Of a stretch of 41,265 nucleotides of DNA, positions 33,878 through 41,265 are shown one piece after another. The translations under genes and the position numbers were made by a program. This stretch comes from Candidatus Magasanikbacteria bacterium CG10_big_fil_rev_8_21_14_0_10_47_10 (lineage in GTDB: Bacteria; Patescibacteriota; Patescibacteriia; Magasanikbacterales; UBA922): the NCBI GenBank assembly GCA_002773135.1, contig PFCB01000030.1, forward strand, positions 1-41,265, given 5' to 3'. The notes below the pieces were generated by a model. That model had not been told where the DNA came from, did no database searches, and was given only the letters and a program-made list of their open reading frames with translations. Each line of letters opens with the position of its first letter. Within the stretch, counting starts at the first letter, position 1.

Positions 33878-35293
33878 CTATATAACACGGACAACCACCG
33901 GTGCCACCATACCCATAGTGCAAGAAATTTTATATGTCCCTTTTTTTGGTTTGCCCAAGTCTATGGTGTTCATGCCCGGGGTCAATGCAACAGACCCAGG
34001 AATAAGCCCACGTGATGCCATATACAGGCCGCATCCCACCATCCCCTGATTATCCACAAGCAATGTGGTAGGGATCCCGGATTGAATGCTTGCCCCGCTT
34101 GTCAGGGTATATTCAAATCCTTTCGCGGTAATGCTAAGAATCTGCGTTCCCTTTGGGGAGTCTGGTGATTTCGAAACTGCCGCGCGAGATTCGGTGTTCC
34201 CTCGAGCCAACACGTCACTGACACTTGGCCACCCCAGCACATTGAACTGCGCGTTTGTGTTATACAGTGCAAACAACACAAGAACCACACCGGCGTAAAA
34301 AGAAAACATCCTTTTTCGTTTGGGTTGTTCTGTTCCTTTAATGCTTGCCAATCCAATCAAAAATAATGGAATGGCTGTCCCCAACACAAACAGGATCATC
34401 ATACTTGCACCACGAGCCGCGCTACCACTTGACAGGGCGATGGCTTCTGCCGCCAACGTAAACCCGCATGGCAGCAATATGGTGCCGGCACCAACAGCAA
34501 AGGGCATGTGCCTATGGAGGGCATGGTCGGAGACACTAATGCGACGAGTGATACTTTTTGGCAGTCGAATTTGAAATCGTTCTGCCCACTCGACACCTGC
34601 CATTTGTAATCCAATCAACAGCATTATAAGCGACACGCTCATGGTTACTATGGCATAAAATATAGCAGAATCAAACGAGAATATCTGACCAATACCACCC
34701 AATATCGCGCCAAACACTGCGTACGAAAACAAACGCCCACCGTGAAAATACAGGTGCGGAACCAATTTTACGGGGAGCGATGCCTCTTTTGGTAAAGCCT
34801 CATTCCACGCTTTTGTCATGGAAAGCAGCACCCCTCCCACCAAAGCGGCACAACTTGAGAGCCCCGCCACCACGCCAAACACAAAAAACAATCCAAGCGC
34901 GGAGCTGTTTCCAAGATTGACATATTGAGACAACCCCAGCCGTGACACCAACCACAGCACAGCAATAACAATGGCCACCCGACCAAGCATATGAAATCGA
35001 CGCGAAAGCTCCCGCCTGTCCAGCTGAATGCCTTGCTTGCCTTCGACAACATACAATAATGGCTCTCGCTTTTTTCGTATTGGTGTTCTGCCAAAGGTAT
35101 ACCCGTCTTCTTTAAACCAAGCATTCAGTTGATCAACCGACGGTACCCAATTTTTGCCAATAATCGTGACCGTCTTATTTCCTATGGACGCATCCGCGGC
35201 CGTCACGCCTTTTTCTTCCAATATCCGCTGCTCAATCAAAAGCTCGCACGACGCGCAATGCATGCCATCGATACAATAGGTTACTTGTTTCAT
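33878..35293 (-). CDS. HMA - TauE/SafE (DsbD_2-like) membrane - cupredoxin fusion
   Basis: 471 residues. The HMA metal-binding domain carries CASC at residues 13-16 in GMHCASCELL. A membrane domain of about six helices follows (VVAGLSSCAALVGGVLLSM, HLYFHGGRLFSYAVFGAILG, ILLPCGFTLAAEAIAL) and resembles the sulfite-exporter/DsbD_2 group. A final domain (about 380-471) looks like a cupredoxin, with MVGCGLYM and ISCTMGM as likely Cu ligands (Cys-458, Met-460/462). It probably takes Cu+ across or out of the membrane and hands it to the cupredoxin. The ATG lies one base after the copA stop (TAGTATG). A longer frame upstream lies inside copA and is rejected. Confidence 0.85.
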   Translation of the reverse strand: MKQVTYCIDGMHCASCELLIEQRILEEKGVTAADASIGNKTVTIIGKNWVPSVDQLNAWFKEDGYTFGRTPIRKKREPLLYVVEGKQGIQLDRRELSRRFHMLGRVAIVIAVLWLVSRLGLSQYVNLGNSSALGLFFVFGVVAGLSSCAALVGGVLLSMTKAWNEALPKEASLPVKLVPHLYFHGGRLFSYAVFGAILGGIGQIFSFDSAIFYAIVTMSVSLIMLLIGLQMAGVEWAERFQIRLPKSITRRISVSDHALHRHMPFAVGAGTILLPCGFTLAAEAIALSSGSAARGASMMILFVLGTAIPLFLIGLASIKGTEQPKRKRMFSFYAGVVLVLFALYNTNAQFNVLGWPSVSDVLARGNTESRAAVSKSPDSPKGTQILSITAKGFEYTLTSGASIQSGIPTTLLVDNQGMVGCGLYMASRGLIPGSVALTPGMNTIDLGKPKKGTYKISCTMGMVAPVVVRVI

Positions 35294-35294
35294 A

Positions 35295-37670
35295 CTATGA
35301 TCGGTATTTGATTCGAATACTGTTGAGCACCACCGAGACAGAACTGAGCGCCATGGCCGCGCTGGCGACAATAGGTGAGAGTAGCAGCCCGAATGCCGGA
35401 TACAACAGTCCGGCGGCAAGAGGGACAGCAATGATGTTATATCCAAAGGCCCAAAACAAATTTTGCTTGATAATAGTCAGCGTGCGCTTGGATATTTTGA
35501 CTGTTTCAATAACCTTATCCAGTGTCCCTTTTACCAAAACAATATCCCCGGCCTCTATGGCGACGTCGGTTCCCGTCCCCATGGCAATGCCGATATCGGC
35601 CTGTGCCAAAGCCGGCGCGTCATTGATGCCATCACCCACCATCGCCACAATGCCATCTGTTCTTTTCTGAAGTTCTTCCAGGTTTCGCGCCTTGTCTTGC
35701 GGCAACACGTCAGCCATGATTTCATCTATCCCCAATTGTTTGGCAATGGCATTGGCCGTTGCGCTGTTATCCCCTGTCATCATCACCACGCGAATCCCCA
35801 GCCCGCGCAGTGCCTGAATGGCTTCTTTTGACTCGTTTTTTATTGTGTCAGCAAGCGCAAAGACTGCTACATGCGCTCCATCAACACTCATGTAAATCGG
35901 TGTTTGCCCTTTTTGAACGAATTCATCCGCTCGTTTCTTCAGATCCTCGCTCAAAGAAATATCGTGTTCACTCATGAGCCGAGCGTTTCCGATCAATACC
36001 TTTTTACCGCCGGCCACACCGGAGACACCACGGCCTTCCACTGCCAAAAAATCCTTAACAGGCAGGCCTTTGTCACCACTTCCCTTAGATGCCGCATGCT
36101 TCTCAATCGCATCCGAGAGTGGATGCTCGGACAAATGCTCAAGCGCGTATGCCATGCCAAGCAGCGTGTTCGCTTCCTTCTCATCTGTGTACGCAGAGCC
36201 GACCACTTCCGGCTTGCCTTGTGTCAATGTTCCGGTTTTGTCAAACACAATCGCTTTTATTTTATGCGCGCGCTCCAATGCTTCCGCGTCCTTTATCAAA
36301 ATACCATGACGCGCGGCCTTGCCGGTTCCCACCATGACGGCCGTGGGCGTTGCCAACCCCAACGCGCATGGGCAAGCGATAATAAGCACGGTTGTAGCTA
36401 TGTACACGGCCAACTGGAGCATGCCGGTATCTACAGCGACAAGACCAAGCGACGGGGCGGCATACAACCAAAACAAAAACGCAAGCGCGGCAATCGCAAT
36501 CACAATCGGGACAAACACACCGGACACTTGATCCGCAAGCTTTTGAATCGGCGCAGTGCTCCCCTGCGCTTCCTGCACCATTTTTATGATCTGTGAAAGC
36601 ATGGTCTCACTGCCCACATGCTCTGCGCGAAACCGAAACGCGCTCGTTTTATTGATAGTCGCGCCAACCACCGCGTCTCCGACTTTTTTTTCCGAAGGAA
36701 TAGACTCGCCCGTCACCATGGATTCATCAATCGTACTGGCACCCTCTATAATGACACCATCCACCGGCACCTTTTCACCCGGACGAACCAATATAGTGTC
36801 GCCTTTCACCACGTCTTCAATCGGTACCTTCATTTCTTTTCCATCACGAATGACTGTTGCTTCTTTTGCCTGCAGCTCAAGCAGTTTCTTTATAGCCTCG
36901 CCCGCCTGTCCCTTTGCCCTGGCTTCAAGCAGACGGCCAAGCAAAATGAAAAACGTAATAAAAACGGCTGCTTCAAAAAAAGTGTCACCGCCATGTTCCC
37001 CCAAAAGTCCCGGCGCAAAAGTGACAATGCTTGAAAAAAACCAGGCGGTAAAGGTGCCAAGTGCGATCAAGGTGTCCATGTTCGCGCTCTTTACCTTCAG
37101 CGCGCGCCACGCGCTGACGAAAATTTGTGATCCGCCCCAAAACAAAATCGGAGTTGTCAGCAAAAATTGCATCAAAAACAACGTACTGAGTGCGAAACCG
37201 CCGGAAAAAAGTACAGTGCCAAACGCATCCGATATATCTTTGCCCGCAAGATCCAGTATCATGAGCGCCAAAAAAGGCAACGCCCCAATCCCCACAAACA
37301 GTACCGTCTTTTTCAACTTTTGATATTGTTCTTTTTTGAGCATGGATGCGTGGTCGTGGTGTCCTTTTTTCATCCCGCCTTTCATGCCGGCCATATCATG
37401 CTGATCTGTCTGCATTTTTTTTGCCTCCGGCATTGATGCTACCACCAACCCGGCATCACTCATCACCATGGTGTATCCACCGGCTTTTTTGACCGCGGCG
37501 GCAATTCCCTCCAATGTGTCTACCGATCCGTCGTACTCCACAGTCATGACTTCGGTACCGTAATTCACGTTCACACTCTGTACACCATCAAGTTTCCCAA
37601 CCATGCGCTCTATATTTTTTTTGCACGATGCGCAGTGCATGCCGACTATTGGATATAGTTCTTTTTTCAT
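35295..37670 (-). CDS. copA: Copper(I)-translocating P1B-type ATPase
   Basis: Exports Cu+ from the cytoplasm; 791 residues from ATG 37670. One HMA domain with CASC (13-16) is followed by a Met/His-rich linker (about 80-110, with HHDHASM). The ATPase core shows TGES (320-323), the intramembrane CPC (433-435), DKTGT with the phosphorylated Asp-477, and HP (516-517). Late helices carry YN (in GYNIIAVP) and [12 protein letters not shown], the P1B-1 (Cu+) signature. It is translationally coupled to the HMA/TauE-SafE/cupredoxin gene. Confidence 0.96.
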
Positions 37671-38573: not shown

Positions 38574-39509
38574 CTATGCCCCGCTGTCAGGAGCAACCGT
38601 TTTACCTATTTCCAGGTCTTTATAGGTAGCGCCAACTCGGGCGGGATCCCGAAAGACAAAGACCCCGTCTTGTTCAACCGTCCCGACCTGCCCCCATACT
38701 TGTTCCAGCGCGCTATACGCACTCGCTTGCGACGAAAGGAGCAGAGCCGGGACGCGTGTCATTGTGTACTTCTCAACCAATTCCTTTCCACGCGCGTCTG
38801 ATACATCAACAATATCCTCGGACACAATCACCACGCCAAACTGTTGCAGTATGGGTCGCATGATTTTTTGCACATCATAACACTCTATGCAGTCTTTATC
38901 CGTTAGATACGTGGCTCCCACAAGTCCTGTCACTTCTGTTGATTGAGCATCCATGTACGGAGGCTGCTCCTGTTCCCAAAGAAGTGTGTTCTCTCCAACC
39001 GGGCGCGCCCCCTGCTCAAGCGCGCGAGCAAGCCGGTCTTTTATTTTCTCATCCGTCACAAATACCAGCGCCGGAAGCTTTCTGATACCAAATTTCTCAA
39101 TGACAGTCTTCCCTTCGGTACTGTCGGCGGAAACCACCCGATCGTCGAGCAGTTCGATATTTTGAGAAGACACCATCTTTTTTTGAGCGGACAAATCTCC
39201 GCACACCGGACAGTTTGATGGAAGAACAAGTGTCAGTGTTCCTTCCTGCGGCCGTACCAACTCAACCGCGTCACTCAGCTTGCTGTTTACGGTAACCGTA
39301 AAGAAGGTCATTGCCGCTATATTGGCCACAAGCACGACCACAAGAATCACCCACAGCGCCTTGATTGGATTTTTTTTAGCAAGAGCGGAAAACCGACTGT
39401 TTTTTTGAACCTGTTCTCCATGATCTTTACCACAACAATCATCCGAAACCGATTCTCTCATCTCCTCGTCGGCATCAATGTGATTCATTTCTTTTTCTTC
39501 TGTTTTCAT
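38574..39509 (-). CDS. Membrane-anchored tandem thioredoxin-like protein
   Basis: 311 residues. The cytosolic N-terminus is acidic with CC at 25-26 and His-30. One transmembrane helix spans about 51-71, and its flanking lysines predict an external C-terminus. Two thioredoxin-like domains follow. Domain 1 has CPVC (100-103) and a cis-Pro motif KLPALVF (Pro-146). Domain 2 has CIEC (207-210) and RVPALLL (Pro-254). Both keep a redox CxxC, so this looks like a two-step disulfide relay outside the cell. No close family name comes to mind. It probably serves the Cys-rich products encoded around it. Confidence 0.75.
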   Translation of the reverse strand: MKTEEKEMNHIDADEEMRESVSDDCCGKDHGEQVQKNSRFSALAKKNPIKALWVILVVVLVANIAAMTFFTVTVNSKLSDAVELVRPQEGTLTLVLPSNCPVCGDLSAQKKMVSSQNIELLDDRVVSADSTEGKTVIEKFGIRKLPALVFVTDEKIKDRLARALEQGARPVGENTLLWEQEQPPYMDAQSTEVTGLVGATYLTDKDCIECYDVQKIMRPILQQFGVVIVSEDIVDVSDARGKELVEKYTMTRVPALLLSSQASAYSALEQVWGQVGTVEQDGVFVFRDPARVGATYKDLEIGKTVAPDSGA

Positions 39510-39541: not shown

Positions 39542-39727
39542 TTAGCAGCCGCCAACCATGGCCGGAGAGGATCCATCATCCGTAAAACTGACAGTCGCGG
39601 GAGAACCACCCACCCCAATTTGCGCGTCTTCCAATTGACGGCTCATGCCGGCAAGCGCCGCTGTCTGATACGACAAGACACCAATAGTGATTGCCAGCAT
39701 AATTGTTAGGTTTTTTTGTGAAAACAT
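39542..39727 (-). CDS. Small exported peptide ending in MVGGC
   Basis: 61 residues from ATG 39727 (longer frames start at non-ATG codons inside the neighbouring gene). Residues 1-26 form a signal peptide with a hydrophobic core and a typical ALA cleavage site. The predicted mature part is 35 residues, rich in Gly, Ser and Asp, with one cysteine at the very C-terminus. The last five residues, MVGGC, are identical to those of the membrane protein encoded just upstream. The function is unknown. The gene lies between a CxxC-rich membrane protein and the tandem thioredoxin, so a thiol-linked or metal-binding role is plausible. Confidence 0.65.
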   Translation of the reverse strand: MFSQKNLTIMLAITIGVLSYQTAALAGMSRQLEDAQIGVGGSPATVSFTDDGSSPAMVGGC

Positions 39728-39767
39728 ACAAGAAATAATTATGAAACTCGGTAAAAATAAATATCTT

Positions 39768-40925
39768 TTAACATCCCCCCACCATACCGGGATTTTCTTC
39801 CGGCTCAAACCCGGACGTCTTGGCTTTTTTTTGCAAATCCGTCAATTCAGACTCTGTCAAATTCATGGTTAAATATTTAATATCCGGCTTGAATTCAGCA
39901 CGGTCACCCGCAAGCGAACTTGCCATGCGCTGCTGTAGCTGTACGGGAAAGTACAGCCCCTTCTGCCGGACAATCTCGTACGCGATCTGTGCGTCCGTCA
40001 TTTCAGGATATGTCCGTATAAGATACGCGGCTGTTCCGCGCATCGCAATTGAATGAGCGCAACCACAGGTTGGCGATCCGTCTTCTCGTACTAAAGTCGT
40101 AACACCGCAACAAAACTCACATGTCACATACGGCTCAGTGCCTATTTTAATGTACCGCTTCATTTCCTCTTCACTCAGCTGAATTGGATTTGATCCCTGC
40201 ATTGGAGCCATAATGCCGAGTTTTCGAATGGACGCATTGATCGCGTTCAAATTCGACATATCAAGACCAAGCTCGCTTCCGTAAAATGGAAGCGTTGTTG
40301 GGGTAACAAGCGCGGCAATATCCCGCGCAAATTCTCCTGTAAGGACGACACCGTCAGCCATATCCATGCCGATCATTTTTTTCCCCACCTGCATGGCAAG
40401 CGCCTGATTGGACACAAACAAAATACCAACGACGATAACCGCCACTTTCTGAAATATCAGATGTCCACTTTTGGTGGGCACGTCTTTTGGTTCAAATCGA
40501 CGCGCCAGTAACGCGATACCCGCAATAAGAACGACAAACGCTATCACACGCATCCACCAAAAATATGGTGAAAAGGCCATCACCGTTGCCGACAGGCCAA
40601 AATACGTGAGAAAGAATACAGGGCACACAGGACAAAGCATGGTAAAAAACGCAAGCAGTCCTGACCCGCCACCAACCGCGCACGACGCGGCTTTACCCTT
40701 TCGCGCAAGCGCAAAAAGTGACACACCAAATCCAAAGGCAACCGCAAACGACCCCGCAAACAGCAGGTCGAACGTGGTGACCTCATTCATATAGGGGATG
40801 CGGTACCCGATAATCGGAATCGTCCACAGACCCAAAAGCAATGTCTCAATGGCAAAGACAAGAAGACCACCGCCAATGAACCAAAGCCAAAACGTTTCCG
40901 TTTTTAACAGTGATACTGTTTTCAT
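39768..40925 (-). CDS. Polytopic membrane protein with CEFCCG...CGCAHS metal-site domain, C-terminal MVGGC
   Basis: 385 residues from ATG 40925 (GTG 40964 is less likely). Five or six helices fill residues 1-180; one carries CPVCPVFF (Cys-98, Cys-101). The soluble domain (about 185-385), predicted outside, has CEFCCG (269-273) and GSPTCGCAHSIAMRG (Cys-287, Cys-289, His-291), a likely metal or Fe-S type cluster site. A helical segment with PEMTDAQIAYEIVRQK and LYFPVQ follows. The final residues are MVGGC. I have the impression of similar CGCAHS domains in CPR and archaeal proteins of unknown function, but cannot name a family. Confidence 0.7.
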   Translation of the reverse strand: MKTVSLLKTETFWLWFIGGGLLVFAIETLLLGLWTIPIIGYRIPYMNEVTTFDLLFAGSFAVAFGFGVSLFALARKGKAASCAVGGGSGLLAFFTMLCPVCPVFFLTYFGLSATVMAFSPYFWWMRVIAFVVLIAGIALLARRFEPKDVPTKSGHLIFQKVAVIVVGILFVSNQALAMQVGKKMIGMDMADGVVLTGEFARDIAALVTPTTLPFYGSELGLDMSNLNAINASIRKLGIMAPMQGSNPIQLSEEEMKRYIKIGTEPYVTCEFCCGVTTLVREDGSPTCGCAHSIAMRGTAAYLIRTYPEMTDAQIAYEIVRQKGLYFPVQLQQRMASSLAGDRAEFKPDIKYLTMNLTESELTDLQKKAKTSGFEPEENPGMVGGC

Positions 40926-40950: not shown

Positions 40951-41265
40951 TCACACCGATACACCCTCCGCGCATCCCGTACGCCGCTGTTTATTCACCC
41001 TACGCCACATATACGCGACACCAATGACATTCACCAACACACCAATGGCAAGGAACACATCCTGATATTTTGTGATTGCGGCGGCACCGGCAAAACCTAC
41101 AAATGGTAGCCAATCAGCGACGTGGTGCGCGCAGCAAGCAGCCATGGCAAAACCGCTTGTACCGGCAGAGACACCGGCCATTGCGGCTTGATGTTCATGA
41201 ATCAAGAATCGTAATTGCTGAAACAAAAACATCTGGTATGTAAATCCGGCAAACAAGGGGGCAAG
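40951..41265 (-). CDS. Membrane protein with CCAHH motif, N-terminally cut by the window edge
   Basis: 104 residues up to the stop at 40951. The frame is open through 41265, so the start probably lies outside the window. Visible parts are a His-containing segment (RFLIHEHQAAMAG), a small-residue helix with FAMAACCAHHVADWLPFVG, another helix (DVFLAIGVLVNVIGVAYMW) and a basic tail with a late Cys. The CCAHH cluster next to a helix suggests metal binding within or near the membrane. It is the first visible gene of the leftward metal/redox cassette, 25 nt before the CGCAHS gene. Confidence 0.65.
   Translation of the reverse strand, partial: LAPLFAGFTYQMFLFQQLRFLIHEHQAAMAGVSAGTSGFAMAACCAHHVADWLPFVGFAGAAAITKYQDVFLAIGVLVNVIGVAYMWRRVNKQRRTGCAEGVSV

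Follow-up and report, generated by a model that had tools for sequence, protein, structure and literature searches.

Two neighbouring membrane proteins encoded in the window (the whole 41,265-nucleotide stretch of DNA that was analysed) end in the same five residues, MVGGC, and comparison of their homologues shows that this ending, in the general form [M/Q]VGGC, has the properties of a selected, sequence-specific tail with a cysteine as its last residue. The tail is genetically linked, in an obligate manner, to the CGCAHS protein family, a member of which was encoded beside it in 56 of 56 loci. The reading that we favour, as plausible if short of probable, is that the tail serves as a membrane-tethered, single-cysteine mobile thiol arm for the extracytoplasmic Cys/His site of the CGCAHS protein, acting in cis, in trans or both.

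Results

Organisation of the window locus

Four genes lie in series on the minus strand, encoding a MerT-like CCxH membrane protein (40951–41265, extending beyond the end of the window to C26:41454), a 385-residue CGCAHS protein (39768–40925), a 61-residue short protein (39542–39727) and a 311-residue tandem thioredoxin-fold protein (38574–39509). The CGCAHS protein consists of an N-terminal multi-transmembrane (TM) domain followed by a TM segment and an extracytoplasmic CGCAHS domain, which carries the Cys/His motif CEFCCG...CGCAH (C269, C272, C273, C287, C289 and H291; minus strand, 40053–40121) and ends in PGMVGGC. Its MVGGC is encoded by ATG GTG GGG GGA TGT (minus strand, 39771–39785), followed by TAA at 39768–39770. 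The short protein has one TM segment and a linker and ends in PAMVGGC, of which MVGGC is encoded by ATG GTT GGC GGC TGC (minus strand, 39545–39559) before TAA at 39542–39544; its last residue is its sole extracytoplasmic cysteine. We infer that the C-termini of both proteins lie outside (C-out topology), which charge bias supports weakly. The multi-TM part of the 385-residue protein (40416–40925) occurs elsewhere as a separate gene (GCPTCGAPLLALxGAP), which makes the 385-residue form a fusion.

Both endings are as the original prediction described them. The coordinates given with it, 39542–39808, are those of an 88-residue ORF beginning at an upstream TTG; homologues of the short protein conserve the ATG at 39727 as the start codon.

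Conservation and specificity of the tail

The genomes compared were MAGs, with genes taken from simple ORF calls. A protein search across 192 related genomes detected a homologue in 30, and in nearly all of those loci the homologue, its short single-TM neighbour or both ended in [MQ]VGGC; after other classes were added, the final sets comprised 31 tailed CGCAHS homologues and 53 tailed short proteins. V-G-G-C followed by a stop was invariant in 53/53 short proteins (homologues from ∼50 further genomes of the phylum), and (V/I)GGC-stop was kept in the 31 CGCAHS homologues, where one V-to-I change was the sole departure. The residue preceding VGGC was always Met or Gln in both sets, and LP was frequent at positions −8/−7 of the tail.

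All four Val codons, all four Gly codons and both Cys codons were used in the tail. Mean column identity over the remainder of the short protein was 17%, with a linker free to vary, which bears out the expectation that the tail would be conserved above the rest of the peptide. The sequence stayed strict while synonymous codons and linker changed, a pattern from which we conclude that VGGC is under purifying selection.

Other ORFs of ≥80 residues in the same loci provided a comparison: among 798, 14 ended in C and none in GC. In a VGGC-stop pattern scan of 286 genomes of the class, which covered TAA and TGA stops with matches read in frame (some members use TAG), all ORFs with credible length and a hydrophobic segment belonged to these two families. 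The remaining matches were very short or out-of-frame, in frames of ≤73 residues, most of them <45. Bacteria outside the phylum were sampled by one peptide-pattern scan using the window's own sequence. The original interpretation is supported in part, namely in its core claim of a functional C-terminal tail with a terminal cysteine. Neither of the outcomes that it had named as contrary, a tail not conserved in homologues or a motif equally frequent in unrelated proteins, was seen: homologues conserve the tail, and across the 286 genomes the motif was not found in unrelated proteins. Because sequence comparison otherwise finds the short protein poorly, its last four residues are also useful as a specific signature in searches.

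Resemblance between the two proteins

The residue before VGGC agreed between partners in 29/29 loci (18 Met/Met, 11 Gln/Gln). On the tree this agreement requires no more than two changes, of which one falls on well-supported branches, and it was therefore rejected as proof of coevolution; it supports a reader common to both tails without proving it, and is suggestive only. Over the last 15 residues, resemblance was higher within loci than between them (0.276 vs. 0.205), a value reached in 0 of 2000 shuffles, which is to be taken as a guide and not a probability since related loci are not independent. Within-locus resemblance was not raised in the stretch just upstream of the tail.

In some genomes, the ∼15 residues before MVGGC are also similar in both proteins, as at L080 (SAPLPSDLNNLPNMVGGC and SAPLPDNLQNLPDMVGGC). 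At L091:1035–2023 the short and CGCAHS proteins have an almost identical TM segment (IGNAVATxIILxVVLxG) in addition to the tail, and this short protein looks as if it derived from a CGCAHS copy after domain loss. The two proteins had been called otherwise unlike, which is mostly correct but, given these cases, slightly too strong.

The L091 segment, similar in its TM as well as its tail, means that part of the likeness may stem from duplication, and would suit a tail that arose by chance, common ancestry or gene conversion and has no function. V-G-G-C, however, is strict in the face of free synonymous change across many families of the class, the linker diverges and the tail is absent from unrelated proteins. 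From these comparisons the shared tail is not a product of chance, and a functionless origin seems to us scarcely credible.

Cysteine content and the distribution of tails

In 55/55 short proteins there was exactly one cysteine after the TM segment, the last residue, at a median TM-to-end distance of 39 residues; the tail was disordered in the structure model (pLDDT <50). Tailed CGCAHS domains contained exactly 6 cysteines (5 core plus the tail) in 30/30 cases, and tail-less domains of the HGGAG type contained 5 in 15/15. Within the CGCAHS domain, the CC, the CGC/CAC and the His are invariant. A weak AF2 model of this domain, made with 4 sequences as input (the window's and those of homologues from related loci), reached pLDDT 68, and a Foldseek search with it gave no fold match.

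Tail-less CGCAHS homologues form two lineages, ending either like HGGAGxDGMHG, a His/Met-containing end found in the majority, or like RKMRAALG. The RKMR lineage is also without one core cysteine of the CGCAHS domain, so the site is not uniform. Beside tail-less CGCAHS lineages the short neighbour keeps its VGGC; at L184 a VGGC match lies ∼1.9 kb upstream. At L193 the arrangement is the converse, a tailed CGCAHS protein beside which no short protein was seen, and the same apparently holds at L192, which is cut by a contig end. Each CGCAHS site therefore has at least one tailed arm, except at L194 and L196 (G641 and G445). The distant CGCAHS homologues at these two loci end in PGGCGA and AGCGV, with a near-terminal cysteine and two residues beyond it.

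At L164:1516–1974 (G105) a CGCAHS homologue shows a deletion of the Cys motif, with DPGYG running straight into TEYSDDEIL, and its C-terminus is altered; an intact VGGC short protein adjoins it, and this homologue is either a pseudogene or an assembly fault.

With one cysteine per tail, tails concordant between partners and polar QT/NQ motifs in the TM segments of both proteins that could pair, the tails might instead form an intermolecular disulphide with each other, a structural staple that locks the CGCAHS and short proteins into a hetero- or homodimer. Where the tail is on one protein only (the tail-less CGCAHS lineages, L193 and apparently L192), just homodimers are left, and the staple leaves V-G-G unexplained; we judge it very improbable.

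Relation to described families and sorting signals

Within the reach of our Pfam and NCBIfam scans, neither protein fell into a family; neither matched a solved structure in the PDB, and searches of plasmids and IMG/VR gave no relatives. A literature search with the word VGGC returned no relevant paper, and PCYCGC returned papers on other subjects only. The PCYCGC family (PF13798) has a CGC plus His motif in an exported protein, as does the CGCAHS family, no member of which matched PF13798 in Pfam scans. CcmH (PF03918), a three-helix bundle with an LRCxxC motif, resembles the CGCAHS family in a CxxC-type motif before a helix and an SDEQI-like second helix, and two CGCAHS members gave weak Pfam matches to it (E 8e-4 to 2e-3). 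An hhalign comparison with E. coli CcmH, at a probability of 1%, did not support membership, and Foldseek and the PDB gave no match. These are two undescribed families with a common tail, conserved across many families of one class of Patescibacteria and present in some further classes of that phylum.

A short, sequence-specific motif at the extreme C-terminus, common to two mostly unlike proteins and with frequent LP at −8/−7, would suit a recognition or processing tag: an enzyme would read [M/Q]VGGC, and would cleave after GG, lipidate the C-terminal cysteine or attach it in some other way, anchoring both proteins. MYXO-CTERM, GlyGly-CTERM and LPXTG are likewise short motifs near the C-terminus of exported proteins and contain Cys or Gly-Gly. 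In these tripartite sorting signals a TM helix and a basic cluster come after the signature motif (PMC11980579). VGGC proteins, in contrast, end at the cysteine, with the stop directly after it in the 31 CGCAHS and 53 short proteins, which rules out a sortase-type CTERM signal, and both are already anchored by an N-terminal TM segment. Per genome, moreover, the tag is confined to proteins of this one locus, whereas sorting tags usually mark many.

A dedicated processing enzyme was looked for beside the tail genes, and no candidate was constant across loci. An M56 (BlaR1-like) metallopeptidase adjoins the operon in 20 of 56 loci, which favours processing where it occurs but rules this enzyme out as a universal one; in the clade of the window no M56 gene adjoins the operon. 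We consider it improbable that the tail is the target of a processing enzyme.

A BlaI/CopY-type repressor was present in 16 of 56 loci. In ∼20 genomes (L078, L080–L084, L087, L090, L102 and L108 among them), BlaI/CopY-type repressor and M56 genes precede the operon for the CGCAHS protein, short protein and PDO-like protein, an arrangement that suggests an inducible, proteolysis-sensed operon.

Thiol and metal genes near the tail

The tandem thioredoxin was the commonest extra neighbour, lying beside the tail in 47 of 56 loci; co-occurrence of short GGC-ending proteins with both it and the CGCAHS protein had been proposed as a check, and was complete for the CGCAHS family but not for the thioredoxin. 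It has two thioredoxin-fold units, each with a CxxC (CPVC and CIEC in the window), as in PDO (PDB 1a8l, 1j08, 2ywm and 2ayt), and both CxxC pairs were invariant in 30 sequences. Profile matches covered nearly its whole length for 2ywm/2ayt (E ∼3e-5) and unit 1 for 1a8l/1j08. It differs from PDO in having an N-terminal TM segment and is likely extracytoplasmic. At L138, L139, L177 and L178 a CcdA/DsbD-like membrane domain is fused to its N-terminus, and the L138 protein also has a cupredoxin-like C-terminal stretch.

No tandem thioredoxin was found anywhere in seven tail-bearing genomes that are 94–100% complete (G109, G176, G160, G161, G105, G460 and G468), nor in G338, which is only 78% complete. 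The seven rule it out as an obligate partner, and the tail cannot be explained in general as a substrate of the thioredoxin encoded next to it.

Genes in the neighbourhood of tail loci encode PDO-like, CcdA/DsbD, HMA/CopA, DUF411-like and CsoR or BlaI/M56 proteins; the loci are linked to thiol oxidoreductases and metal genes. In the window, a 522-residue protein with HMA, DsbD_2 and possible cupredoxin domains (33878–35446) adjoins a CopA-type ATPase. At several Gln-type loci the short VGGC protein is followed by a small anchored domain, CxTPxGYTxxxWxxHMxHHPDxYxxC (L088:10548–10805, L093:10613–11206 and L103:9500–9823), whose conserved Cys and His residues suggest metal binding.

The metal genes bring in the main rival to a thiol arm, Cu(I) relay. 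Here the terminal cysteine, through its thiolate and carboxylate, would act with the CGCAHS cysteines to bind and relay Cu(I) or another soft metal, and the tails would be metal-handling, not redox, arms. Eukaryotic Ctr1, for comparison, has a C-terminal HCH. Such a role is favoured by the neighbouring Cu-type P-ATPase with HMA, HMA-DsbD_2 protein, DUF411-like protein, MerT-like CCxH protein (a neighbour in 21/56 loci) and CsoR-like repressors, and by the His/Met-containing HGGAGxDGMHG end that replaces the tail in most tail-less CGCAHS homologues. On the other hand, Met at −5 exchanges freely with Gln, so that a thioether is not a conserved ligand and Met is ruled out as a required one; the commonest extra neighbour is a PDO-like thiol oxidoreductase, and the RKMR-type tail-less end is without ligands. 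We regard a metal ligand as unlikely, though a serious contender.

Discussion

The nearest working analogy to the thiol arm is offered by redox enzymes with cysteine tails. C-terminal redox arms include the GCUG/GCCG tail of thioredoxin reductase, the C-terminal CC of mercuric reductase and the C-terminal cysteines of ribonucleotide reductase R1. In these enzymes a flexible Gly/Cys segment extends to a Cys active site, either within its own chain or from a partner subunit, a reach that we infer for VGGC. They differ in having a vicinal or spaced Cys pair (or Cys-Sec) in the arm, whereas the VGGC tail terminates in its single cysteine and is carried by one or both members of a membrane-anchored pair of proteins, and the VGGC system has no FAD or nucleotide enzyme.

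As a mobile thiol arm, the tail might work as follows. The short and CGCAHS proteins would be neighbours within the membrane, the C-terminus of each facing outward, and the flexible arm would carry its one thiol to the CxxCC...CGCxH site of the CGCAHS protein. There the thiol could enter a short-lived mixed disulphide, or it could pass on or help to ligate a soft metal, for example Cu(I). The PDO-like tandem thioredoxin, where present, would keep the thiols reduced, and would itself be fed by the CcdA/DsbD-type proteins encoded in many loci. VGG and the preceding Met or Gln would form the docking part of the arm, with the same pocket reading the tails of both partners. If the arm is able to work either in cis or in trans, a tail on the short protein only, on the CGCAHS protein only or on both is to be expected. 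The present evidence does not distinguish redox transfer from Cu(I) transfer.

Taken more broadly, [M/Q]VGGC could represent a functional C-terminal tag of a new type, a single-thiol arm offered in cis or in trans to an undescribed extracytoplasmic CC..CGCxH centre, in a Patescibacteria-specific thiol or copper relay that has no sequence relationship to the Dsb, Ccm or Cus systems; this wider claim is possible but doubtful. The tail can be assayed as a synthetic peptide. Should the arm model be true, the tail would be a trans-acting version of a cysteine swinging arm, and these very small cells would carry out extracytoplasmic thiol or copper chemistry with a minimal kit.
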